Below, in pieces: positions 18,842 through 41,369 of a stretch of 46,786 nt of DNA. Below the pieces are notes generated by a model that saw only the letters and a program-made list of their open reading frames with translations, made no database searches and was not told the DNA's origin. Positions within the stretch are counted from its first letter, which is position 1; each line of letters opens with the position of its first letter. This DNA is from Marinifilaceae bacterium. Its GTDB lineage: Bacteria; Bacteroidota; Bacteroidia; Bacteroidales; Marinifilaceae. A program made the position numbers and the translations under genes. The stretch is taken from the NCBI GenBank assembly GCA_016936255.1, contig JAFGYE010000105.1, positions 1 through 46,786 of the forward strand. The letters run 5' to 3'.

Positions 18842-21154
18842 ATGAATCATCTTATTAATAATATCAATGAAGCCCTTCGTATAGAGGGGATTCGTGAGAG
18901 CTTGAAGAACGGGAAGTTTGGCATTGAAAAGGAAAATGTGAGAGTCGATTACACGGGTAAGATGGCAACAACACCACATCCGGGAATTTTGGGTGATAAA
19001 TTTCAGAATCCTTTTATTACAACTGATTTTTCGGAAAGTCAGGTGGAGATGATAACACCTCCTTTGCATAGTATTGCTGAAGTTCATGGTTTTTTAGAGA
19101 CTTTGCAGGATGTAATTTCTGAAAATTTAACCGATGAATTACTTTGGCCGCAAAGCTTACCTCCTTTATTGCCTCAGGAAGAAGAGATACCAATTGCTAA
19201 ATTCGGAGAGAAAGGAATTCATAAAGAGAAATACAGAGAGGAATTGGCCAACCGATATGGGAAGGAAAGACAGATGCTTTCCGGGATTCACTTTAATTTT
19301 TCTTTATCAGACAGGTTAGAGCGAAAGTTGAAAAAAGCGAATCATTGCAACAGCGATTTGGAAAGCTTTCGTGAGTCTGTTTACTTAAAAATGGTTCGGA
19401 ATTTTATGCGGTACCGATGGATGCTGATCTGGTTATTTGGCGAAAGCCCGATTTCTGATCCTTCTTTTAAAATGAAATCGTTAAAAACAGGAAAAAAGAG
19501 TTTCATGAGCTGTGGAAATGCGATTTCGATTCGAAACAGTTCCATGGGATATAGAAATATAGAAGAGTTTTATGTCGATTTTAACAGTCTGGAGGATTAT
19601 AAAAAATCTGTGTCTAACTTGATTCAAACAGGTAAAATATTGGCAGGAGAGGAGCTCTATCTTCCCATTCGGTTAAAATTTGATGAAAAGAGCAAAAAAA
19701 TATCACATCTGGAAGTACGTATTCTGGATTTAGATCCGTTTGAAAAATCGGGAGTATCTAAAAATAGATTGTATTTCACACATTTATTTCTGTTGTATTG
19801 CTTATTCACCGCCGAAAATGATAAGTACAATGAAGCAGTCCAAAAGGTGGCTGCCAATAATCAGGATTTGGTTGCATGTCATGGTTTGAATTCTGAGCTA
19901 ATGCTTATGAATTTTGATGGACAGGAAACTTGTGCAAAAAAGATGTTGAACGAATTATTTTCTGACATTACTGATTTTGCAAGAACAGCCGATTTAATTA
20001 ATGATTCTGATTATCAGGGATCTCTTGCTGAGATTTCAAATTTTATTGAAAATCCTGATCAGCGAACTTCATTTAAAGTAAAACAACGAATTGTAGAGGA
20101 GGGCTTCATTAATTTCCATTTGAACAAAGCTAAGCAGTACAAGGAAGAAAGTGAGATGAGTAGTTTTCGCTTTCATGGATTCGAAGATCTGGAATTGTCT
20201 TCTCAATTACTTATGAAGGCGGCTTTACGAAGAGGGGTGGAGTTTACTATATTGGACCGATGTGAAAATTTCATCAGTTTAAGCCAGGGAGATAAAACGG
20301 AATATGTAATGCAGGCTACCCGAACATCATTAGATAACTATTCAAGTGTTTTAATGATGGAGAATAAGCTGGTAACGAAGAAAATTCTTGAAAAAGGTGG
20401 AATTAGGGTTCCTGCCGGATTGGATTATCAGGATGCCAGACAAGCACGTTCTGATTTTGATTTGTTTGAAGGAAAAGGAATTGTAGTAAAACCTAAATCG
20501 ACAAATTTTGGCTTAGGAATTACCATTTTAAAAGAAAATAAAGACGAGGAGGTTTACAAAAGAGCTGTTGATATTGCTTTTGAACACGATGGAAGTATCC
20601 TTATTGAAGAGTTTATTTCGGGTAGGGAATTCCGATTCTTTGTAATAAACGATAAGGTGTGTGGTATTTTGCACAGGGTTCCGGCCAATGTAAAAGGGGA
20701 TGGTGAAAAATGCATTCGCGAGTTGGTTGAAATCAAAAATCAGGATCCCTTGCGTGGAAAAGGATATCGGACACCACTCGAAAAAATTCGATTGGAAGAG
20801 GCTGAAGAAATGTTCTTAAAAGAGCAAGGCTTAAGTTTCGAAAGTGTTCCAGGTAAAGATGAAGTTGTTTACCTAAGGGAGAATTCAAACATTAGTACCG
20901 GTGGCGATAGCATTGATTATACCGACGATATTCATCAGTCATACAAGGATATTGCAATAGAATCGTCAAAAGCGCTTGGTGTTCAGATTACAGGATTGGA
21001 TATGATGATTGAAGATGTAAATCAGCCGGCAACAAAAGATAATTACGCCATAATTGAAATGAATTTTAATCCGGCAATTCACATTCATTGTTACCCATAT
21101 ATAGGTAAAAACAGACAGTTAAATGAGAAAATTTTGGATTCATTGGGATTTTGA
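18842..21154 (+). CDS. gshF: bifunctional glutamate-cysteine ligase / glutathione synthetase
   Basis: The 770-residue protein is a GshAB fusion. Residues about 1-450 are a type I glutamate-cysteine ligase, with GKFGIEKENVRVDYTGKMA at the N-terminus and DFSESQVEMITPP. Residues about 480-770 are an ATP-grasp glutathione synthetase/D-Ala ligase-like domain, with VVKPKSTNFGLGITIL, HDGSILIEEFISGREFRFFV and a metal-binding IIEMNFNPAIHIHCYP. It makes gamma-glutamylcysteine and then glutathione in the cytosol from Glu, Cys and Gly with two ATP. The length matches the usual roughly 750. The order ohrR - MATE - gshF suggests a thiol/peroxide stress unit. Confidence 0.93.
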   Translation: MNHLINNINEALRIEGIRESLKNGKFGIEKENVRVDYTGKMATTPHPGILGDKFQNPFITTDFSESQVEMITPPLHSIAEVHGFLETLQDVISENLTDELLWPQSLPPLLPQEEEIPIAKFGEKGIHKEKYREELANRYGKERQMLSGIHFNFSLSDRLERKLKKANHCNSDLESFRESVYLKMVRNFMRYRWMLIWLFGESPISDPSFKMKSLKTGKKSFMSCGNAISIRNSSMGYRNIEEFYVDFNSLEDYKKSVSNLIQTGKILAGEELYLPIRLKFDEKSKKISHLEVRILDLDPFEKSGVSKNRLYFTHLFLLYCLFTAENDKYNEAVQKVAANNQDLVACHGLNSELMLMNFDGQETCAKKMLNELFSDITDFARTADLINDSDYQGSLAEISNFIENPDQRTSFKVKQRIVEEGFINFHLNKAKQYKEESEMSSFRFHGFEDLELSSQLLMKAALRRGVEFTILDRCENFISLSQGDKTEYVMQATRTSLDNYSSVLMMENKLVTKKILEKGGIRVPAGLDYQDARQARSDFDLFEGKGIVVKPKSTNFGLGITILKENKDEEVYKRAVDIAFEHDGSILIEEFISGREFRFFVINDKVCGILHRVPANVKGDGEKCIRELVEIKNQDPLRGKGYRTPLEKIRLEEAEEMFLKEQGLSFESVPGKDEVVYLRENSNISTGGDSIDYTDDIHQSYKDIAIESSKALGVQITGLDMMIEDVNQPATKDNYAIIEMNFNPAIHIHCYPYIGKNRQLNEKILDSLGF

Positions 21155-26005: not shown

Positions 26006-26037
26006 TTTGTATAATGAGAATATTCTCATTATATTTG
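26006..26037 (+). promoter_or_regulatory. promoter of the ORP-like operon with embedded palindromic operator
   Basis: TTTG at 26006-26009, a 20-bp spacer and TATATTTG at 26030-26037 form a complete promoter 16 bp before the DUF134 start codon. The spacer is almost filled by a perfect 22-bp palindrome (26011-26032, core TGAGAATATTCTCA) that runs into the first bases of the -7 box. A protein bound there would block RNA polymerase, so this is a likely repressor operator, perhaps for DUF134 itself or for a metal or redox regulator. Confidence 0.75.
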
Positions 26038-26053
26038 TTGAAAATAAATCCCT

Positions 26054-26458
26054 ATGCCAAGAAAAATCAGATTGCGAAAAGTTGTGGAACCACCAAGATT
26101 TAAGGGTTACAGACCTTTTGGTGTAAATTCTAAGAGTCGGAAATCAATTGATTTGCTTTATGAAGAATATGAAGCATTGAAGTTAGCAGATTACGATTTG
26201 TTGAAACATGATGAAGCTGCTGGTTTAATGGGCATATCGAGGCCGACTTTTGCGAGAATCTACGAAAGTGCCCGAAGAAAAATTGCTGCAGCATTGGTAG
26301 AAGCAAAGGAAATAAGAACTGTTTTTGGGAATGCAGTTATGGATAATAATTGGTATTTGTGTTCAAAATGCAATGCAAGATTTAATATTCCGGAAACTAT
26401 GGACAAAGAAATTTGTCCGGCTTGTAATTCCAAACACATCGAATTAATTAATAAATAA
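26054..26458 (+). CDS. DUF134 family DNA-binding protein
   Basis: The 134-residue protein begins MPRKIRLRKVVEPPRFKGYR and contains LLYEEYEALKLADYDLLKHD, then a sigma-70 region 4-like helix-turn-helix (DEAAGLMGISRPTFARIYES), all typical of DUF134. It has an added C-terminal zinc ribbon: C-x2-C in YLCSKCNARF and C-x2-C in EICPACNSKH. DUF134 proteins often head operons of NifX-like and MinD-like proteins, so it is probably the local transcriptional regulator. First gene of the operon; 4 bp separate it from the next. Confidence 0.9.
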   Translation: MPRKIRLRKVVEPPRFKGYRPFGVNSKSRKSIDLLYEEYEALKLADYDLLKHDEAAGLMGISRPTFARIYESARRKIAAALVEAKEIRTVFGNAVMDNNWYLCSKCNARFNIPETMDKEICPACNSKHIELINK

Positions 26459-26462
26459 GAAT

Positions 26463-26780
26463 ATGAAGACAATTATTACATCAACGGGAAATCAATTGAA
26501 TTCAATTTTTGATTTGCGGTTTGGAAGAGCAGGTTGGTTTTGTTTGTATGATGATCAATCAGGAGAAATTAGTTTCATCGAGAATGAAAATATCAACTCG
26601 CAAAGTGGAGCAGGAACCAAAACTGTTGAAAAGGTGGTCGAACTGGGTGCTCAAAAAGTAATTTCAGGTGATTTTGGGCCTAAAGCAAAAGAATTGCTTG
26701 AAAAGTTCAATATTCAAATGGTGTTGCTGCAAGATGATAATAGCACAGTGCAGCACATTATAGACAAATTGAAATCTTAA
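26463..26780 (+). CDS. NifX/NifB-family (dinitrogenase FeMo-cofactor-like) protein
   Basis: The 105-residue protein has the small alpha/beta cofactor-binding fold of the NifX/NafY/Orp family: an N-terminal ITSTGNQLNSIFDLRFGRAG strand-loop, then GAGTKTVEKVVELGAQKVIS and GPKAKELLEKFNIQM. Relatives carry Fe-Mo or Mo-Cu clusters; in Desulfovibrio the Orange Protein is such a member. No Cys-rich site is visible. It sits second in the operon between DUF134 and the DUF5320 genes. Confidence 0.88.
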   Translation: MKTIITSTGNQLNSIFDLRFGRAGWFCLYDDQSGEISFIENENINSQSGAGTKTVEKVVELGAQKVISGDFGPKAKELLEKFNIQMVLLQDDNSTVQHIIDKLKS

Positions 26781-26791
26781 AATAAAATGTT

Positions 26792-26977
26792 ATGCCACAT
26801 TTGGATGGAAAAGGACCCGAAGGAGAAGGTTCAAAATCGGGAAGAGGACTAGGACAGTGTTCTGAATCTGACCAAAACATTCTATTGGAGAAGTTAGGGA
26901 AAGGTTTAGGTTTGAAACGAAAAAGTGGTTGTGGTAAAGGGCAGGGAAAAAGATTGAAAAGTAGTAAATCAATTTAA
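26792..26977 (+). CDS. DUF5320-like small glycine-rich protein
   Basis: The 61-residue protein has the DUF5320 opening (MPHLDGKGPEGEGSKSGRGL followed by GQC) and a Gly/Lys-rich, basic C-terminal part with one further Cys (KSGCGKGQGK). DUF5320 proteins accompany NifX-like and MinD-ATPase genes in anaerobes; their function is unknown. It is shorter than many members, with no coiled-coil extension. It lies 11 bp after the NifX-like gene. Confidence 0.8.
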   Translation: MPHLDGKGPEGEGSKSGRGLGQCSESDQNILLEKLGKGLGLKRKSGCGKGQGKRLKSSKSI

Positions 26978-26991
26978 AAAAGGAGGTTGAA

Positions 26992-27195
26992 ATGCCAGGT
27001 TTAGATCGAAGTGGTCCGGAGGGAAAAGGTGCCCGAACCGGAAGAGGAATGGGGCGTTGTAACAGCAACAAGAAAATGTACAGTGAGACTGAATTTAAGG
27101 ATGAAACCATTGAAAGAGGCAAAGGACAAGGATTTGGTCTTGGACGAGGACGTGCCGGAAGACTAAGACTTCGCCGAAGGAAAATAAATGATTAG
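26992..27195 (+). CDS. second DUF5320-like small protein
   Basis: The 67-residue protein is a paralogue of the preceding gene (MPGLDRSGPEGKGARTGRGM then GRC) and ends in a very basic GRGRAGRLRLRRRK tail. It has a clear ribosome-binding site (AGGAGG about 6 bp before the ATG), unusual in this phylum. It probably arose by tandem duplication. Function unknown. Confidence 0.8.
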   Translation: MPGLDRSGPEGKGARTGRGMGRCNSNKKMYSETEFKDETIERGKGQGFGLGRGRAGRLRLRRRKIND

Positions 27196-27566
27196 ATATT
27201 TATTCCTTGGTTTCATAAAAAATGCATCCTGATTAGTAAGAGGCATAAGGGTCTTGTTGATTTTATTCTTCTTGAATAATATCAATAGCTCTTGTGCTGT
27301 ATCTGATACAAAGAATAAAATAGTATTCCCTCTTGTTTGGGATTGATCAATTGAAATAAAATATTATATGAAACGTCCATGACAGGCAATTGTGACACAA
27401 AGAGGCATGATTATCGGTTCATGGCAATCCCGAAGGTTTTCGGGATCATATGGAAAAAACTTAAAATTATTAACAGATGAAACACCTATGTAAAAGGCTT
27501 TACACAAAGGAAGATGATTGCAATTTGGGTGTTCCATGTGACAAATAAAAATCAAATTATAAACAC
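27196..27566. other. intra-operon gap with hairpin and a degenerate repeat
   Basis: 371 bp between the second DUF5320 gene and the next NifX-like gene. It holds a hairpin ATCCCGAA-GGTT-TTCGGGAT (27427-27446) and two related stretches around 27394-27425 and 27503-27540 sharing ACACAAAG and ATGATT words. The minus strand across both (27364-27537) could encode a 57-residue Cys/His-rich peptide, see the findings. No confident gene. Confidence 0.45.
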
Positions 27567-27905
27567 ATGAAAAAGAAAATTGCAATTCCGGTTAAAGATG
27601 GGATTTTGGATGGACATTTTGGCCATTGTTCGCATTTTGCATTGCTTGATGTAATGGATAAAGCTATTGTTACAGAAGAATTAGTGGCTGCACCACCACA
27701 TGAACCAGGTTTGTTGCCTCCATTCTTAGCTGACTTAGGGGTTACTGATGTAATTGCCGGAGGAATGGGAAACAGAGCCATACAAATTTTTAATCAACAC
27801 AATGTAAATGTATTTGTTGGAGCACCTCAATTAGATGCTAAAGAATTGGTAAAAGGATTTTTGGATGAAAGTTTAAGCTTTACAGCTAACTATTGCGACC
27901 ACTAA
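27567..27905 (+). CDS. NifX/NifB-family protein, second copy
   Basis: The 112-residue protein has the same fold family as the first copy but a more canonical sequence: IAIPVKDGILDGHFGHCSHF, then LPPFLADLGVTDVIAGGMGN and IFNQHNVNVFVGAP. The GHFGHC segment places a Cys and two His near the predicted cofactor loop, and a C-terminal C-x-H (NYCDH) is present. It may carry or deliver a metal-sulfur cluster. It starts a tightly spaced gene group with the DUF89 gene 2 bp behind. Confidence 0.9.
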   Translation: MKKKIAIPVKDGILDGHFGHCSHFALLDVMDKAIVTEELVAAPPHEPGLLPPFLADLGVTDVIAGGMGNRAIQIFNQHNVNVFVGAPQLDAKELVKGFLDESLSFTANYCDH

Positions 27906-27907
27906 AT

Positions 27908-28774
27908 ATGGATAACAGGTGTTTGACTTGCCATTCCAAAACGGTGGATTTACTAATTGACAAATTTAATCTTCAGGGGGAAGTCGCAGGTAATTTTTCC
28001 TCTGAAGTAAATCATTTACTAACAAATTGTAAGCACCTCTCAAATCCTTATCTGGCGTTGCTAATTCATCGTTTGGCGAAAAAGAAAATACAAAATGATG
28101 ATTTGTACCGTGAGGAGAAGAAACATGCCAATTCAATTTTGTATTCGCAATATAAAAAATGGGTTGCATTTGTGAATGAAAATGATGAATCACTGCATAT
28201 TGCCGCAAAATTAGCTGTTGTTGGCAATATTGTTGATTATGGAGCACATAGTGTACCAGCCGATATTCCAGCTAAAATAGAAGAATTACTGGCTCTTGAT
28301 TTTGCTTTGGACGATAGGGATGAGATGTTTGCTGAAATAGAAAAAGCAGAATCGGTTTTGTATTTAGGCGATAATGCAGGCGAAATAGTTTTCGATAAGC
28401 TTTTTATTCAACATCTGAATCATCCCAACTTAACTTATGTAGTTCGGGGAAATCCGATTATTAATGATGTGACTCTTGAGGATGCTGAACAAGTAGGAAT
28501 GCAGGATGTTTGCAGGGTGATATCGAATGGTCATGATGCACCTTCAACCTTAGTGGATAATTGTTCAGAGGAATTTCAGGAACTGTATACAAATGCGGCT
28601 GTTGTGATTTCTAAAGGACAGGGAAATTTTGAAGGTTTGCTAAATGAAAAAAGAAAATCACTTTATTTTATGCTGATGGCAAAATGTGATATAATGGCTG
28701 AGATGTTGGGTGTGAATAAGGGAGATTTGATCATTACAAAAAAGCAGGAGGGGAGTTTATGGCGTTTAAAATAG
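27908..28774 (+). CDS. DUF89/ARMT1-family protein (damage-control phosphatase-like)
   Basis: The 288-residue product starts at the ATG at 27908 (MDNRCLTCHSKTVDLLIDKF), two bases behind the previous stop. It shows DUF89 hallmarks of the AF1104-type bacterial/archaeal subgroup: an N-terminal C-x2-C, LYLGDNAGEIVFDKLF with the metal-binding Asp-Asn, VVRGNPIINDVTLEDAEQVG and ISKGQGNFEGL. Characterised relatives are metal-dependent phosphatases that act on damaged phosphometabolites. The role in a metal-cluster operon is unknown. Its 3' end overlaps the next ATPase gene by 16 bp. Confidence 0.85.
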   Translation: MDNRCLTCHSKTVDLLIDKFNLQGEVAGNFSSEVNHLLTNCKHLSNPYLALLIHRLAKKKIQNDDLYREEKKHANSILYSQYKKWVAFVNENDESLHIAAKLAVVGNIVDYGAHSVPADIPAKIEELLALDFALDDRDEMFAEIEKAESVLYLGDNAGEIVFDKLFIQHLNHPNLTYVVRGNPIINDVTLEDAEQVGMQDVCRVISNGHDAPSTLVDNCSEEFQELYTNAAVVISKGQGNFEGLLNEKRKSLYFMLMAKCDIMAEMLGVNKGDLIITKKQEGSLWRLK

Positions 28775-29625
28775 CCGTTGCAAGTGGCAAAGGAGGAACA
28801 GGCAAAACAACTTTTGCTGTTAATTTATTTTCTTCCATCAATGAGCATTGGACAAGAAGTGTACAGTTGGTTGACTGCGATGTGGAAGAGCCGAATGACC
28901 TTTTGTTTTTTCGGAATTTCTCGGTTAAGAGCGAGAAATTATCAGAGCAGGTGATTCCAAAAATAGACACTTCGAAATGTACATTTTGCAAAAAATGTGA
29001 GGAATATTGTGAATTCAATGCAATTGTAATGATTCCCTCAATGCAGTATGCTGTTGTAAATAAGGATTTGTGTCATTCTTGTGGTGCTTGTTTTGTGGCC
29101 TGTCAGTTTGATGCTATTCACGAAACCAAAAATGCTATTGGAACCGTGACCAATTACAATATTGGTAATAATTTGAGTCTGATGGAAGGCAATTTGCGGG
29201 TTGGTTCTCCATTGCAGACTATGTTGATTAAGGATTTAAAGAAGAACTTAGTTGGTGAACATGATATTCTGATTTACGATGCACCACCTGGTACAAGTTG
29301 TCCGGTTGTTGAGACCATTTCGGATGCCGATTTTGTGATTTTAGTGACTGAGCCAACTCCATTCGGAGTATATGACTTAAAGCTTACTGTTGATTTATTG
29401 CGTGAGGTGAATAAACCTTTTGGTGTTTTTGTAAACAAAGCCGGATTAGGAGATTCTGAAGTGTATGAGTTTCTGAAGGCAGAAAATATTGACTTGTTGG
29501 GTGAAATTCCTTTTAGTAAAGAGTATGCAGGTTTGTATGCAAAAGGGAAAATTGTGAGCTGTGTTCCCCTTCAATTCGCGAAGGAGTATCGCAAGGTGGT
29601 TGAGTATTTGAAGAAATTGAATTAA
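28759..29625 (+). CDS. MinD/Mrp-type ATPase with inserted 2[4Fe-4S] ferredoxin domain (first)
   Basis: The 288-residue protein begins with a deviant Walker A, ASGKGGTGKTTFAVNLF, and keeps the VDCDVEEPN and YDAPPGTSCP switch motifs of MinD/Mrp ATPases. Between about residues 60 and 115 lies an inserted ferredoxin domain with two C-x2-C-x2-C-x3-C sites (KCTFCKKCEEYCEF and LCHSCGACFVACQF). Paired genes like this accompany Orange Protein/NifX-like genes and may move or load metal-sulfur cofactors with ATP. Cytosolic. The start overlaps the DUF89 gene. Confidence 0.92.
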   Translation: MAFKIAVASGKGGTGKTTFAVNLFSSINEHWTRSVQLVDCDVEEPNDLLFFRNFSVKSEKLSEQVIPKIDTSKCTFCKKCEEYCEFNAIVMIPSMQYAVVNKDLCHSCGACFVACQFDAIHETKNAIGTVTNYNIGNNLSLMEGNLRVGSPLQTMLIKDLKKNLVGEHDILIYDAPPGTSCPVVETISDADFVILVTEPTPFGVYDLKLTVDLLREVNKPFGVFVNKAGLGDSEVYEFLKAENIDLLGEIPFSKEYAGLYAKGKIVSCVPLQFAKEYRKVVEYLKKLN

Positions 29626-29626
29626 T

Positions 29627-30514
29627 ATGAAGGATATAACTATTCTTAGTGGTAAAGGGGGAACAGGAAAAACCAGTATTACAGCAGCTTTGGCTTCGGT
29701 GATTAAAAATACTGTTTTTGTAGATGCTGATGTTGATGCAGCTGATCTTCACATTATTTTTCAACCGGAAAATAAAGAGACGCATGTGTTCGAGGGAGCT
29801 TGGGTTGCTTCTATTGATACCAATTTATGTACCAATTGTGGTCTTTGCAGACAGCATTGCAAATTTGAAGCTATCCATTTTAAACCGGGTGGAGGCTTAC
29901 GTATCGATGCTTTTGCATGTGAAGGTTGTCGTCTTTGTGAACGTATTTGTCCTGCAGGAGCAATCAGTTCAGAGCGAAGCCGCAACAATCATTGGTTTGT
30001 GTCCGATACGCGTTTTGGATCATTGGTTCATGCTAAAATGGGACCGGGTGAGGAAAATTCGGGTAAATTAGTCACTCAAATTCGAAAAAGCGCTAAGAAA
30101 ATTGCCATAGAAACAAATGCTGAATTTATTTTAAATGATGGGCCTCCGGGAATCGGCTGTGCGGCAATTGCGTCTATTACCGGAACCGATGCAGTAATTT
30201 TGGTTACAGAGCCCAGCAAATCAGGATTTCATGATTTAGTGCGTTTGGTAGAGTTGGTGCAGTCGTTCCAAATACCGATGTATGCTCTAATCAATAAATA
30301 TGATATCAATTTAGAAATTTCCATGCAAATGGAAAGCTTTTTTACCACACAGGGAATTACGCTGATGGGCAAACTGCCTTTTTCCGAAGAGGTAGTTTAC
30401 TCGATGGTAGAGAAAAAAACAATTTTGGAGTACAATAAAGATTCGGAAATTGGCAACGCACTATTAGAACTTTGGAAGAAAGTTGATGTTTCCGAACTAA
30501 AAATTGAACAATGA
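29627..30514 (+). CDS. MinD/Mrp-type ATPase with inserted 2[4Fe-4S] ferredoxin domain (second)
   Basis: The 295-residue paralogue starts one base after the previous stop, with Walker A LSGKGGTGKTSITAALA, switch motifs VDADVDAADLH and NDGPPGIGC, and a ferredoxin insert (LCTNCGLCRQHCKF and ACEGCRLCERICPA). The two ATPases probably form a heterodimer, as proposed for ORP-type clusters. The last 4 bp overlap the start of the thioesterase gene (ATGA). Confidence 0.92.
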   Translation: MKDITILSGKGGTGKTSITAALASVIKNTVFVDADVDAADLHIIFQPENKETHVFEGAWVASIDTNLCTNCGLCRQHCKFEAIHFKPGGGLRIDAFACEGCRLCERICPAGAISSERSRNNHWFVSDTRFGSLVHAKMGPGEENSGKLVTQIRKSAKKIAIETNAEFILNDGPPGIGCAAIASITGTDAVILVTEPSKSGFHDLVRLVELVQSFQIPMYALINKYDINLEISMQMESFFTTQGITLMGKLPFSEEVVYSMVEKKTILEYNKDSEIGNALLELWKKVDVSELKIEQ

Positions 30515-30927
30515 TTATTGGTGAATATAAAATACGGCCAAGATACAACGAGGTCGATCAAATGGGATATGTGTATCATGCCAATTACGTCAATTATTGT
30601 CATCAGGCCAGAACGGAACTGTTGCGCCAATTCGGCATAAACGACAAGGTGTTAGAGGATAATAATATTATGCTTCCTGTAATTGAAATGAATTTAAGAT
30701 ATTTAAAACCGACAGGCTATGATGAAGAATTAACGGTTCGAACCAAAATAAAGGAATTGCCCAAGGTTCGTTTCAAATTTGAGTTCGAATTTGAAAACGG
30801 AAAAGGAGAAAAGACATGTACTGCAACATCTACGGTGGTTTTTGTGGATAGTAAAACCCGAAAACCACATCAAGTTCCTGACATGGTTGTGAGTGCCCTG
30901 CAAAACGAATTTCAATTAGTAGTTTAG
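30511..30927 (+). CDS. acyl-CoA thioesterase, hot-dog fold (YbgC/4HBT family)
   Basis: The 138-residue protein has the 4HBT motif RYNEVDQMGYVYHANYVNYC, with the catalytic Asp and the D-x-x-G-x-x-x-H-x-x-Y pattern, then LRYLKPTGYDEELTVRTKI. It hydrolyses short acyl-CoA thioesters in the cytosol. Its 4-bp overlap with the second ATPase puts it in the same transcript, though a functional link to metal-cluster assembly is not obvious. A strong terminator follows. Confidence 0.88.
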   Translation: MIIGEYKIRPRYNEVDQMGYVYHANYVNYCHQARTELLRQFGINDKVLEDNNIMLPVIEMNLRYLKPTGYDEELTVRTKIKELPKVRFKFEFEFENGKGEKTCTATSTVVFVDSKTRKPHQVPDMVVSALQNEFQLVV

Positions 30928-37996: not shown

Positions 37997-40450
37997 ATGA
38001 ATTCAAATAATCTACATAAAACTCCTGAGCGTGCGCCTCGTTCAGAAAGCAATTTTAGCAATGCTCATTCTTCTGATTCTCATGCAGGCATGAGCGAACG
38101 CATTCAAAATTTACGCAAAATAAGTGTTGATACAGAGCCATCGCTTGATATCGAAAGAGCTTTGATCGAAACCGCTTTTTACAAAGAAAACAATGGGAAG
38201 TATTCCATTCCCATGATGCGGGCATTGACCTTCATGGAAATTTGTAAAAAGAAAACAATTTATTTGGGTGAAGGGGAATTGATCGTAGGAGAACGTGGCC
38301 CATCTCCAAAATGTGTACCTACTTTTCCTGAGTTGACCTGCCATAGTGTTGACGATTTAAATGTATTGAATACCCGTGACTTGCAGCGCTATACCATATC
38401 GAAGGAAGATATTGACACTTATGCTCGTGAGGTAATTCCATACTGGGAAGGCCGCACCATGCGCGAACGCATTTTTAACTACGTACCCCAAGAGTGGAGT
38501 GCGGCTTACGAAGCAGGTTTGTTTACCGAATTTATGGAACAGCGTGCTCCTGGCCACACCACTTTAGATGGCAAGATTTACCAAAAAGGATTGCTTGATT
38601 TTAAAAAAGACATTCAGGCCCACATCGAGCGGTTGGATTTTATGAATGATGAGGAGGCCACTGACAAGCTGGAAGAACTGAAAGCCATGGCCGTTTCCTG
38701 TGATGCTGCGATTCTGTTTGCAGAACGCCATGCCGATTTAGCCGAAGAACAGGCAAAAACAGAAAAAGATGCCAAAAGACTTGCCGAGCTGAACAATATT
38801 GCGGCAGTCTGTCGGTGGGTACCGGCTCATGCACCCCGGAATTTTCACGAAGCCATACAAATGTATTGGTTCATGCATCTTGGAACCATCACCGAGCTGA
38901 ATGGATGGGATGCCATGAATCCCGGGCATTTTGATCAGCATCTGGAACCTTTCTACAACAGGGAAACGGAAGCCGGAGACTTATCCCGTGAGGAGGCAAA
39001 GGAATTATTGAGTTGTTTCTGGATTAAAGTAAACAATCATCCTGCACCGCCCAAAGTGGGAATTACAGCACGCGAAAGCGGCACCTATAACGATTTTACG
39101 AACATCAATATTGGAGGAGTCCGCAGAGACGGTTCCGATGGTGTTAGCGGGGTTTCTTATCTGATGCTGGAGATTATTGAAGACCTGCATATTCTGCAGC
39201 CGGGAAGTTCCATTCATGTTAGTACACGTACTCCTGATCGTTTTTTAAAAGAGGGTTGTAAGGTGATTCGTCAGGGACACGGTTATCCTTCTGTTTTCAA
39301 TCCCGATGTGTATGTCATGGAATTGCTTCGTCAGGGAAAGTCATTGGAAGATGCGCGCGAAGGCGGTTGCAGCGGTTGTATCGAAGTAGGAGCTTTTGGG
39401 AAAGAAGCCTATGTTTTAACCGGTTATCTGAATGTTCCAAAGATTTTAGAGGTAAGCTTAAATAATGGTATTAATCCCGTAACCGGTAAAATGGCTGGAA
39501 TTCAAACCGGCGATCCCCGCAATTTTAAAAACTTTGAAGAATTGTACGAAGCATTCCTGAAACAGCTGAATTTTGTGGTGGATCAGAAAGTCAGGGTAAG
39601 TAATTATATCGACCGCATGTTTGCCAAATATGCACCGGCACCATTATTATCGGTACTAACGGACGATTGCATTGCCCGGGGAAGGGATTATTATAATGCC
39701 GGACCACGATACAACACAAACTATATTCAATGTACAGGTTTGGGAACCATTACCGATAGTTTGGCAACACTGAAAAAACACGTGTTTGAGTCGAAAAATT
39801 TTACAATGGATGCAATCATAGAGGCTGTGGCTAAAAATTTCGAAGGGGAAGAAATTCTTCGTCAGACCATACTCAATAAAACACCCTTTTTTGGAAATGA
39901 CGATGAATACGCTGATAGCATTGCAGTGCGTGTTTATAACGATTTATTGGAAGCCATTGATGGGAAACCCAATACAAAAGGAGAAACATATCATCTGAAC
40001 ATGCTTTCGACTACCTGTCATGTGTATTTTGGCAAAGTAATGGGAGCTACTCCTAACGGACGTTTGGCCGGGAAATCTATTTCCGATGGAACTTCTCCTT
40101 CGCATGGCAGCGATGTTAACGGACCTTCGGCAGTGATTCGTTCCCTGACAAAAATTGATCAGACCAAATCGGGTGGAACTTTATTGAATCAGCGTTTTCT
40201 TCCAAGTTTACTGAAAAGGGATGAAGACATTAATAAGCTGAGCAAGCTGATCCGGAGCTACTTTTCATTGGGTGGTCATCACATTCAATTTAATATTGTT
40301 GATTCAGCAACTTTGCTGGCGGCTCAGGCTTGTCCGGAAGATTACAAAGACTTGTTGGTACGTATGGCCGGTTACAGTGATTACTTCAACGATATGAATC
40401 CCGATTTACAGCAGGAAGTGATCGATCGTACTGAAAATGAATCGTTTTAA
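37997..40450 (+). CDS. hypD: trans-4-hydroxy-L-proline dehydratase, glycyl-radical enzyme
   Basis: The 817-residue glycyl-radical enzyme has the radical Gly at G792 (RMAGYSDYF), the thiyl Cys at C461 and the acid/base at E463 (GGCSGCIEVG). The Cys-Gly spacing of 331 equals that of the Clostridioides difficile enzyme (C434, G765). At the same +27 offset H187, D305, S361, D366, F367, Y477 and T672 correspond to H160, D278, S334, D339, F340, Y450 and T645, the active-site residues I recall for HypD. It dehydrates trans-4-hydroxyproline to pyrroline-5-carboxylate; that product is normally reduced to proline by ProC, which is not in this window. A Ser/His-rich N-terminal extension of about 27 residues is unusual. 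Strictly anaerobic cytosolic enzyme. Confidence 0.9.
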   Translation: MNSNNLHKTPERAPRSESNFSNAHSSDSHAGMSERIQNLRKISVDTEPSLDIERALIETAFYKENNGKYSIPMMRALTFMEICKKKTIYLGEGELIVGERGPSPKCVPTFPELTCHSVDDLNVLNTRDLQRYTISKEDIDTYAREVIPYWEGRTMRERIFNYVPQEWSAAYEAGLFTEFMEQRAPGHTTLDGKIYQKGLLDFKKDIQAHIERLDFMNDEEATDKLEELKAMAVSCDAAILFAERHADLAEEQAKTEKDAKRLAELNNIAAVCRWVPAHAPRNFHEAIQMYWFMHLGTITELNGWDAMNPGHFDQHLEPFYNRETEAGDLSREEAKELLSCFWIKVNNHPAPPKVGITARESGTYNDFTNINIGGVRRDGSDGVSGVSYLMLEIIEDLHILQPGSSIHVSTRTPDRFLKEGCKVIRQGHGYPSVFNPDVYVMELLRQGKSLEDAREGGCSGCIEVGAFGKEAYVLTGYLNVPKILEVSLNNGINPVTGKMAGIQTGDPRNFKNFEELYEAFLKQLNFVVDQKVRVSNYIDRMFAKYAPAPLLSVLTDDCIARGRDYYNAGPRYNTNYIQCTGLGTITDSLATLKKHVFESKNFTMDAIIEAVAKNFEGEEILRQTILNKTPFFGNDDEYADSIAVRVYNDLLEAIDGKPNTKGETYHLNMLSTTCHVYFGKVMGATPNGRLAGKSISDGTSPSHGSDVNGPSAVIRSLTKIDQTKSGGTLLNQRFLPSLLKRDEDINKLSKLIRSYFSLGGHHIQFNIVDSATLLAAQACPEDYKDLLVRMAGYSDYFNDMNPDLQQEVIDRTENESF

Positions 40451-40460
40451 ATCTTTTTAA

Positions 40461-41369
40461 ATGGGAAAAGGACTGATTTTCGATATTAAAAGATACGCTA
40501 TTAATGATGGGCCCGGCATTCGGGTAACTATTTTCTTTAAAGGCTGCCCTTTGTCCTGCGTTTGGTGTCATAATCCGGAAAGTATTTTGGATTACGCGCA
40601 GAAGATGTACACAGCTTCGAAATGTATCGGAGCTGTAAAATGTACAGAGGTTTGTCCGAATGATGCGCTGACTTTAACCAGAAATGGGATTGAGACAGAT
40701 GTTGAATTGTGTAATCTTTGCGGAAAGTGTGCAGAGGTTTGTCCAACAAAGGCCATCGAAATGTCGGGGAAGGAATACAGTACGGCTGATTTGATGAAAA
40801 TTATTGAAAGGGAAACCGTTTTCTTTGATCATTCCCAAGGTGGAGTGACTTTTTCAGGAGGAGAACCTTTGATGCATTTTCAAAAACTGATTGAACTGCT
40901 GGATAATTGCGGTAAAAAGGACATTCACCGGGTAGTGGATACTACATTATTTGCGAATACGGATGTTGTTCTTGATGTGGCCAAACGAACTGAATTATTT
41001 TTGGTTGATCTGAAAGCCTGGGATTCTGAAGTGCACCAAAAATATACCGGAGTTCCCAACGGGCAAATTCTTAAAAACATAAAGCTCCTGGCAGAAATGG
41101 GTAAGGATTTTATCATTCGCATCCCTTTTATCGATGGAGTGAATGCCGACGAACTAACACTAAGAAAAGAAGCGGAATTTTTATCCTCTATTCCATGGGA
41201 ACGAAAAGAAGTGAATCTGCTGCTTTATCATGACATTGCAAAAGGCAAACACCAAAAACTCGGTTCTGCTTACAAAGCAGAGGAACTGGCGACACCTTCC
41301 GATGAAATGGTACAATTCGCTCAAGCTATTTTTGCCGAAAAAGGCATAAGCGCCACTGTTGGTGGCTAA
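40461..41369 (+). CDS. hypE: glycyl-radical enzyme activating enzyme (radical SAM)
   Basis: The 302-residue protein starts 10 bp after hypD. It has the radical-SAM C-x3-C-x2-C (C29, C33, C36 in GCPLSCVWCHNPES), an inserted ferredoxin domain with two clusters (KCTEVCPNDA and LCNLCGKCAEVCPTKA), the SAM-binding GGVTFSGGEPL and DLKAWDSEVHQKYTGVPNG. It generates the glycyl radical on HypD using SAM and reduced iron-sulfur clusters. The pair is a textbook enzyme/activase operon, closed by a terminator. Confidence 0.93.
   Translation: MGKGLIFDIKRYAINDGPGIRVTIFFKGCPLSCVWCHNPESILDYAQKMYTASKCIGAVKCTEVCPNDALTLTRNGIETDVELCNLCGKCAEVCPTKAIEMSGKEYSTADLMKIIERETVFFDHSQGGVTFSGGEPLMHFQKLIELLDNCGKKDIHRVVDTTLFANTDVVLDVAKRTELFLVDLKAWDSEVHQKYTGVPNGQILKNIKLLAEMGKDFIIRIPFIDGVNADELTLRKEAEFLSSIPWERKEVNLLLYHDIAKGKHQKLGSAYKAEELATPSDEMVQFAQAIFAEKGISATVGG

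Follow-up and report, generated by a model that had tools for sequence, protein, structure and literature searches.

A DUF134-headed operon encoding ORP-like NifX proteins and paired ferredoxin–MinD ATPases in a Marinifilaceae bacterium

The window analysed here is a stretch of 46,786 nucleotides from a Marinifilaceae bacterium (assembly GCA_016936255.1, contig JAFGYE010000105.1). Within it nine co-directional genes on the + strand span positions 26054–30927, as seen from the list of open reading frames and from Pfam and NCBIfam scans of the window. The operon opens with a DUF134 (UPF0251) helix–turn–helix (HTH) protein (26054–26458; PF02001, 69.7 bits, over the cut-off), which ends in a CxxC–CxxC ribbon. 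There follow NifX-1 (26463–26780; PF02579, over the cut-off), which resembles the ORP protein Orp8, and two DUF5320 proteins, both over the PF17253 cut-off: protein a (26792–26977), which is glycine-rich and has a cysteine within its N-terminal motif, and protein b (26992–27195). NifX-2 (27567–27905; PF02579) resembles the C-terminal (Di-Nase) domain of MrpORP. Next comes a DUF89/ARMT1-like metal-dependent phosphatase with an N-terminal CxxC (27908–28774; PF01937, 194 bits), the start of which is either ATG 27908, leaving no overlap with NifX-2, or alternatively TTG 27893. Two Orp3/Orp4-like ferredoxin–MinD ATPases (28759–29625 and 29627–30514) are of the MinD/NUBPL type by Pfam, and each contains two Fer4 stretches and a cysteine in switch II (Cys181 in ATPase 1, Cys178 in ATPase 2). 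The last gene encodes a YbgC/FadM-type hot-dog thioesterase (30511–30927; TIGR00051, 97.9 bits, over the cut-off). The DUF89 gene overlaps that of ATPase 1 by 16 bp (28759–28774) and the ATPase 2 gene overlaps the thioesterase gene by 4 bp (30511–30514). An earlier note on this DNA, made from the letters alone, had given the same two overlap lengths, which are exact, and the same NifX, DUF5320, DUF89, ATPase and thioesterase families, all of which are present (by Pfam over the cut-offs, the thioesterase by TIGR00051). The DUF134 gene that opens the interval was absent from that note, and is the most informative gene of the operon.

The distribution of the gene set was followed with the ATPases as queries. 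ATPase 1 was found in 8 of 9 genomes of the genus, in 55 of 149 genomes of an order sample and in 2 of 198 genomes of a class sample, the source genome being included each time. The 53 loci fetched around these hits (52 from 50 order-sample genomes and one from the class sample) represent all but four (G201, G224, G309 and G325) of the 54 further genomes of the order that have the cluster, and 51 of these loci hold the ferredoxin–MinD pair. An alignment scan of named genomes with ATPase 2, from which the best 80 loci were kept, gave titles from Bacteroidota, Desulfobacterota groups, Omnitrophota, Planctomycetota, Chloroflexi, Spirochaetes, Methanohalophilus, a Bathyarchaeon and others. The pair is present in 31/31 loci of this named Bacteroidota set (one of which is labelled Chlorobiota) and in 43/49 loci of other or unstated phyla. 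The 141 loci include three couples with an identical ATPase 2 stretch (L068/L148, L064/L128 and the window/L098).

Neighbours were counted if they lay no more than 6 kb from the pair on its own strand, and the counts are lower bounds because contig ends cut many loci. Among the 51 pairs of the order sample and the one class locus, NifX is found beside all 51, DUF134 beside 41, DUF5320 beside 39, DUF89 beside 16, an Mrp-like ATPase beside 14 and the thioesterase beside 12. All eight loci of the genus have NifX, DUF134, DUF5320 and the thioesterase, and seven have DUF89. The 31 pairs of the named Bacteroidota are accompanied by NifX (30), DUF134 (20), DUF5320 (20), DUF89 (13), Mrp-like proteins (10) and the thioesterase (6), and the 43 pairs of other or unstated phyla by NifX (38), Mrp-like proteins (24), DUF5320 (18), DUF89 (8) and DUF134 (6). 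The thioesterase was seen beside none of the latter 43 and, in the loci examined, only in Bacteroidota. Pairs without a NifX gene in reach number 0/51, 1/31 and 5/43 in the three sets. Since a same-strand NifX gene accompanies every pair of the first set the grouping is not due to chance, and the counts across all sets identify NifX and the ATPase pair as the core. DUF134 and DUF5320 often accompany it, especially in Bacteroidota, and DUF89 and the thioesterase are optional modules. The conservation of the neighbourhood across Bacteroidota, proposed as a check in the earlier note, is thus borne out (NifX beside the pair in 51/51 and 30/31 loci), but the place that it gave to DUF89 and the thioesterase as defining partners is not, and neither can be counted among the core parts (16/51 and 12/51 pair loci). 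The same note held that orthologous clusters lacking the ATPases, or consistently lacking NifX, would refute its reading, and here the outcome is divided. Pairs nearly always come with NifX, but DUF134–NifX modules without ATPases do exist, because 25 of 36 DUF134 loci distant from any pair (L238–L273) have NifX no further than 3 kb away, and the pair is absent from the 5–10 kb fetched for each of the 36. In one of the 36 (L273, genome G201) an assembly break may hide the pair, which may follow on another contig. These 36 loci, 19 of which have the operator described below, point to a wider DUF134–NifX regulon. The gene set is common to many anaerobes, in which it probably handles metal–sulfur clusters.

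The two NifX proteins are of different kinds. NifX-1 is of the ORP/Orp8 type and matches the solved structure 2wfb, which we take to be the ORP of Desulfovibrio gigas, with an E-value of 1.4e-6 (31.8 bits); 1rdu and 1eo1 (MTH1175) score higher. For NifX-2 the structure matches listed are PH0822 (2yx6), 1t3v and 1o13, with 2wfb not among them, and the best match is to the MrpORP model NF041136, where it aligns with positions 264–364 of 365 at 115.6 bits (the cut-off for the whole protein is 450). Conservation was scored on subsets filtered by score. In 85 NifX-1 sequences (≥ 95 bits) no cysteine or histidine is conserved at 80%, while Arg19 and Arg22 are invariant. In 80 NifX-2 sequences (≥ 90 bits) H17, H20, C21, H45, C110 and H112 are kept at 93–99%. 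It is inferred from these patterns that NifX-1 holds an anionic cluster non-covalently and that NifX-2 would bind an iron–sulfur cluster via cysteine and histidine ligands. Relatives of ORP are reported to bind a Mo–Cu–S cluster non-covalently (PMC6345978). The same report describes Orp3 and Orp4 as having two 4Fe–4S motifs each, co-purifying with Orp8 and receiving Fe–S clusters from MrpORP.

The Mrp-like ATPases found near the pair extend this likeness. Three of eight such proteins scanned pass the curated MrpORP cut-off and five match the Mrp part only. Loci L161 and L184 encode the Mrp half and NifX-2 in adjacent genes, a split MrpORP that is intermediate between the fused protein and the stand-alone NifX-2. 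The operon can be assigned to the ORP type because of the matches of NifX-1 to ORP and of NifX-2 to the MrpORP tail, together with the occurrence of MrpORP beside some related pairs, and the claim that it is ORP-like, already made from the letters alone, stands; the ATPase pair also agrees with Orp3/Orp4 as described in the literature (PMC6345978). The D. vulgaris ORP complex (Orp3, Orp4, Orp5, Orp8 and Orp9/MrpORP), compared by published description, shares the paired MinD ATPases with two 4Fe–4S ferredoxin motifs each and the ORP-like NifX, and has its MrpORP tail represented here by the second NifX; in some related loci of other phyla MrpORP itself stands beside the pair. The complex differs in having a fused MrpORP, whereas the source genome has only the tail, as the stand-alone NifX-2, with its best Mrp half on another contig. 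The D. vulgaris genes are reported to form divergent operons under the sigma-54 regulator DVU2106 (PMC3897727). The genes studied here run in a single direction with DUF134 first and have promoter boxes of the sigma-ABfr type, and they add DUF5320, DUF89 and thioesterase genes.

Expression data from other organisms bear on the signal. In D. desulfuricans the genes Ddes_1864–1867 (annotated as NifX, as cobyrinate synthase, which is a name given to MinD-type proteins, as 4Fe–4S and as NifX) are reported as repressed with nitrate alongside feoA, feoB-like and flavodoxin genes, and the authors mention a ‘nitrogen fixation’ cluster that is probably this one (PMC5701242). In D. alaskensis Dde_3197–3199 are reported to change together with feoA and flavodoxin (PMC10533852). 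Homology in both cases is by annotation and not by alignment, and the Desulfovibrio data point to iron supply as the signal in those organisms. It could be argued from this joint movement that the operon is a response to iron limitation or sulfide stress in which the complex, with its anatomy otherwise as set out here, rebuilds or stores generic Fe–S clusters and handles no special cofactor. The reported binding of a 3Fe–4S cluster by the Di-Nase domain of MrpORP, and the feeding of aconitase by MrpORP (PMC6345978), would fit such a role. This explanation is nevertheless somewhat unlikely, as NifX-1 keeps no cysteine or histidine ligand at the 80% level and matches ORP, the relatives of which reportedly bind Mo–Cu–S without covalent attachment (PMC6345978).

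Upstream of the DUF134 gene a palindrome search identified a perfect 24-bp palindrome (26010–26033, with a 14-bp core at 26015–26028), the proposed DUF134 operator, that ends 20 bp before the start of the gene. The palindrome fills the 20-nt spacer between a candidate −33 element, TTTG (26006–26009, + strand), near-invariant in ten aligned upstream regions, and a −7 element, TATATTTG (TAnnTTTG; 26030–26037, + strand), which begins 1 nt after the operator core. For sigma-ABfr, the main Bacteroides sigma factor, the consensus TTTG/TAnnTTTG at −33/−7 is reported (PMC7366714). In the aligned regions (eight from the genus and two from relatives) the core is invariant and the flanks diverge. The 4.7-Mb assembly contains the exact core at a single place and a version with one mismatch at ten more, and 100 shufflings of the window gave no match even at three mismatches.

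Palindromes of the same type precede many other DUF134 genes. The motif TGARMATATKYTCA, written after the first loci had been inspected and scored at up to one mismatch, is present at the DUF134 start in 58 of 79 loci, with 67 matches in 43,450 nominal bp around DUF134 starts versus 29 in 1,735,069 bp elsewhere. Three of the five exact matches elsewhere open clusters in which no DUF134 gene was detected (L105, L108 and L110), and an exact match in L114 lies 0.3 kb before ATPase 1, the DUF134 gene of that cluster lying after the pair. The 36 pair-distant loci introduced above, which had not been used for the motif, provide a further test; they represent 26 of the 32 DUF134-positive, pair-negative genomes and the pair-distant DUF134 genes of ten pair-positive genomes. 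Nineteen have the motif (20 matches in 14,400 bp versus 7 in 298,774 bp), while 100 shuffled palindromes of the same make-up occurred on average in 0.09 loci and never in more than 2. The genomes of other phyla, a set without a shuffled control, contribute 30 DUF134 loci, and 6 of these have the motif. A conserved palindrome at its own promoter is thus a feature of DUF134 mostly in Bacteroidota. Its position is also conserved: among 85 unique sites, reduced from 88, TAnnTTTG stands exactly 1 nt after the core in 52 (next commonest offset: 6), and TTG stands 5 nt before the core in 28 and 3 nt before it in 17. In six loci there are two sites at a distance of 26 bp (L061, L063, L067, L129, L137 and L192).

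A protein bound to the palindrome would cover the promoter, and repression is therefore the simplest reading: DUF134 is very likely an autorepressor that switches the operon off from within its own promoter. The 4-Cys C-terminal ribbon (CxxC–CxxC) is kept in 71 of 78 DUF134 homologues with the HTH motif and may sense metal or redox state. It is also conceivable, but unlikely, that DUF134 is an activator that distorts the spacer as MerR does, leaving the remainder of the scheme unchanged. MerR-type activators likewise bind in the promoter spacer, but the 20-nt spacer of the window has the usual length for a −33/−7 promoter, so no distortion would have to be corrected, and the HTH of DUF134 is presumably sigma-like and not of the MerR fold. 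A Fur-type box was considered as the identity of the palindrome and rejected, as the motif recurs specifically at DUF134 genes; no Fur model was run. The operator occurs in two dialects, one found with alanine in the recognition helix (30/31 rows) and the other with threonine, serine, glycine or histidine (42/43 rows). Descent explains most of this link because the tree needs just three changes of each trait, and co-variation of helix and operator independent of phylogeny was rejected, with one independent pair on supported branches. No account of the function or operator of DUF134, a widespread but little-studied family, and no functional study of DUF5320, was found among the open-access papers searched. 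PMC7565180 contains either name a single time; PMC10434189, considered as a DUF134 paper, uses the term DUF1349.

The two ATPases form an adjacent MinD-type pair with two 4Fe–4S ferredoxin motifs each, as in Orp3/Orp4. The eight ferredoxin cysteines are invariant in all 15 sequences aligned for each ATPase, as is one extra cysteine seven residues after the switch-II aspartate. This cysteine separates the ferredoxin–MinD proteins from their relatives. In proteins of 230–420 residues it is present in 261 of 276 ferredoxin–MinD sequences, while 50 of 52 Mrp-like proteins without ferredoxin motifs have aspartate at the position. Thirteen of the 15 remaining rows gave no match to the search pattern, one has tyrosine and one glycine, and at least one of the 15 (L114 MinD-1) does in fact have the cysteine. 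Six NifH sequences have a cysteine at the same offset from the aspartate, which is presumably the cluster ligand C132. The ATPases share with NifH and BchL the deviant Walker A ATPase fold and this offset, and differ in the inserted ferredoxin domain and in that no counterpart of the second cluster cysteine of NifH was seen by eye. The conserved switch-II cysteine suggests ATP-gated transfer of clusters or electrons, and a cluster may bridge the two ATPases.

An AlphaFold2 model of ATPase 1 (mean pLDDT 91.5, pTM 0.85) contains a C-terminal helix (271–287). The 50 Foldseek matches listed for this model are led by 5tvk, a Borrelia plasmid partition protein, and the archaeal MinD structures 1g3q and 1ion. 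The list also holds ATPases of the HypB, ApbC and Cfd1 types and protochlorophyllide reductase L (2ynm and 6uyk), and no NifH entry was recognised in it; TM-scores normalised on the query are 0.5–0.6 with root mean squared deviations mostly above 10. Both the MinD/ParA fold of the leading matches and the C-terminal helix are what would be expected if the pair positions a division complex at the cell pole or septum, with NifX as an auxiliary. Such a role was the first to be proposed for the D. vulgaris ORP complex, and a putative cell division role and polar localisation of MrpORP are cited in PMC6345978. It is improbable here, as the eight ferredoxin cysteines and the switch-II cysteine, invariant in both ATPases, are not needed for positioning alone, and as no division family was recognised among ten recurring neighbours scanned, which include a CGGC protein, CobO, a Cys/Met pyridoxal phosphate (PLP) enzyme and an Mrp-type iron-transfer NTPase.

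The relation to nitrogenase was assessed in the whole source genome. Its contig C92 contains four PF00148 genes, a NifH recognised by motif and a NifB-like radical-SAM/NifX (PF02579) protein. As judged by eye, this nif cluster (74121–84569 of C92, L202) further includes two P-II-like genes, a gene for a small ferredoxin-like protein and the beginning of one resembling homocitrate synthase. The statement in the earlier note that no nitrogenase gene is present therefore holds for the window but not for the genome. Its conclusion that the cofactor is not destined for nitrogenase is upheld on other grounds. In the order sample 8 of the 55 genomes with the cluster and 5 of the 94 without it have PF00148 (E ≤ 1e-30; Fisher p 0.07), and the cluster is not tied to nitrogenase because 47 of the 55 have no PF00148 gene. 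For Nif cofactor carriers (NifX, NafY, NifY) an occurrence tied to nitrogenase would be expected. That the NifX proteins carry the iron–molybdenum cofactor (FeMo-co) or its precursors to a nitrogenase encoded elsewhere, as the nif cluster on C92 and the FeMo-co carrier fold of PF02579 might suggest, is highly improbable and was rejected, given these 47 genomes, the absence of the cluster from 5 of the 13 PF00148 genomes and the location of operon and nif genes on different contigs. Apparent homologues of the operon have been labelled as nitrogen fixation or FeMo-cofactor genes in two reports (PMC5701242, PMC10533852), and the present operon shows that such a label can mislead.

The reading favoured on balance, with moderate confidence in the model as a whole, is that the operon is a nitrogenase-independent, ORP-type metal–sulfur cluster system of anaerobes, repressed by DUF134, in which NifX-1, NifX-2 and the ATPase pair move a cluster. 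Gene content, conservation, the placement of the operator and the conserved residues support it at the level of sequence. In this model a DUF134 dimer bound to TGARMATATKYTCA, within the 20 nt that separate the −33 from the −7 element, would block the main sigma factor and so repress the operon, and the C-terminal 4-Cys ribbon of DUF134 would probably sense metal, Fe–S or redox state. NifX-1 would hold the cluster non-covalently, as ORP does, and NifX-2, as a stand-alone MrpORP tail, would bind iron–sulfur by its cysteines and histidines and serve as donor. The two ferredoxin–MinD ATPases would form a heterodimer that couples the hydrolysis of ATP to the transfer of electrons or clusters, the switch-II cysteines of both subunits would be positioned as ligands of a bridging cluster, and DUF89 and the thioesterase would be optional accessory enzymes. 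Repression in preference to activation, the nature of the signal, dimer formation, a cluster bridging the ATPases, the direction in which transfer runs and the metals of the cluster are predictions of the model. A more specific version can be put forward tentatively as a possibility. The pair may be an ATP-driven heterodimer resembling nitrogenase reductase, without a nitrogenase, in which the switch-II cysteines help to hold a bridging 4Fe–4S cluster that is fed by the two ferredoxin domains and passes electrons or clusters to the cluster on NifX-1, while the DUF134 ribbon reads metal or redox state and the operator lies inside the promoter.

Several observations weigh against this reading. 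In the loci of other or unstated phyla DUF134 lies within 6 kb of just 6 of the 43 pairs. The motif at up to one mismatch is missing from 21/79, 17/36 and 24/30 DUF134 loci in the first, further and other-phyla sets, respectively, and the link between helix residue and dialect, with about three tree changes, is not independent of descent. The profile alignment of the ATPases with NifH (hhalign) is weak and gave no usable residue match, so that equivalence with the NifH ligand is argued from the motif. The Foldseek matches are plain MinD/ParA-type ATPases that do not favour a reductase over other roles. Finally, no full-length MrpORP in the source genome exceeds the 450-bit cut-off, the best score being 245 bits for an Mrp half on contig C15.

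The ORP-type operon is itself of a known kind, and among what is new the DUF134 operator and the discriminating switch-II cysteine stand out as strongest. A defined operator with a dedicated regulator offers a way into the physiological role of ORP, with a signal that lends itself to straightforward reporter or binding assays. Should the ATPase pair act as nitrogenase reductase does, this would supply a mechanism for a large family that has members, by record title, in Bacteroidota, Desulfobacterota, Omnitrophota, Planctomycetota, Chloroflexota and a methanogen.

DUF89 is associated with the cluster. In the order sample 28 of the 55 genomes with the cluster have PF01937 versus 7 of the 94 without it (Fisher p 3e-9), and the DUF89 gene lies within 10 kb of ATPase 1 in 18 of the 35 DUF89-bearing genomes. 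In one member of the genus (L104) NifX-2 adjoins the ATPase with no DUF89 gene between them. The link is real but not obligatory. The residues of the GD-N-GE, ND and KGQGN motifs are invariant in 15 of 15 sequences and presumably form the metal and catalytic site. These core motifs are shared with the DUF89/ARMT1 damage-control phosphatases, although the protein scores below both NCBIfam equivalog cut-offs. Solved relatives are 2g8l and 2ffj, and the family is described as one of metal-dependent phosphatases (PMC8669784). The DUF89 gene appears to be broken by internal stops in one relative (L073:4827–5716) and truncated in another (L063:6034–6354), which fits an optional module.

The leader 5′ of NifX-2 (27366–27566, + strand) holds two degenerate copies of a unit of ~105 bp, of which members of the genus have, by eye, none, one or two copies. 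Tandem Repeats Finder made no call in this leader, and an Rfam riboswitch was rejected there, the sole match lying elsewhere at chance level (E 0.55). Further genes recur near the pair in relatives. A glycine-rich protein of ~73 residues with a CxxC ribbon is encoded in 12 loci at a median of ~0.7 kb before an ATPase (e.g. L097:5323–5544), and the single member scanned has no Pfam match. A CGGC-domain protein, a CobO adenosyltransferase, a metallo-beta-lactamase-fold protein and a Cys/Met PLP enzyme recur in L076, L117 and other order-sample loci, as do a pyridine nucleotide-disulphide oxidoreductase, a TrmO-like protein and a radical-SAM protein.

Elsewhere in the window, the stretch 37997–41369 encodes a glycyl-radical enzyme that, at 1180.6 bits, passes the curated trans-4-hydroxy-L-proline dehydratase cut-off of 1100. 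It is followed by an activase with the activase of the same enzyme as its best model, below the cut-off (330 versus 425). The region 18842–21154 encodes a glutamate–cysteine ligase with an ATP-grasp domain (GshF-like), after DoxX, MarR and MATE genes.

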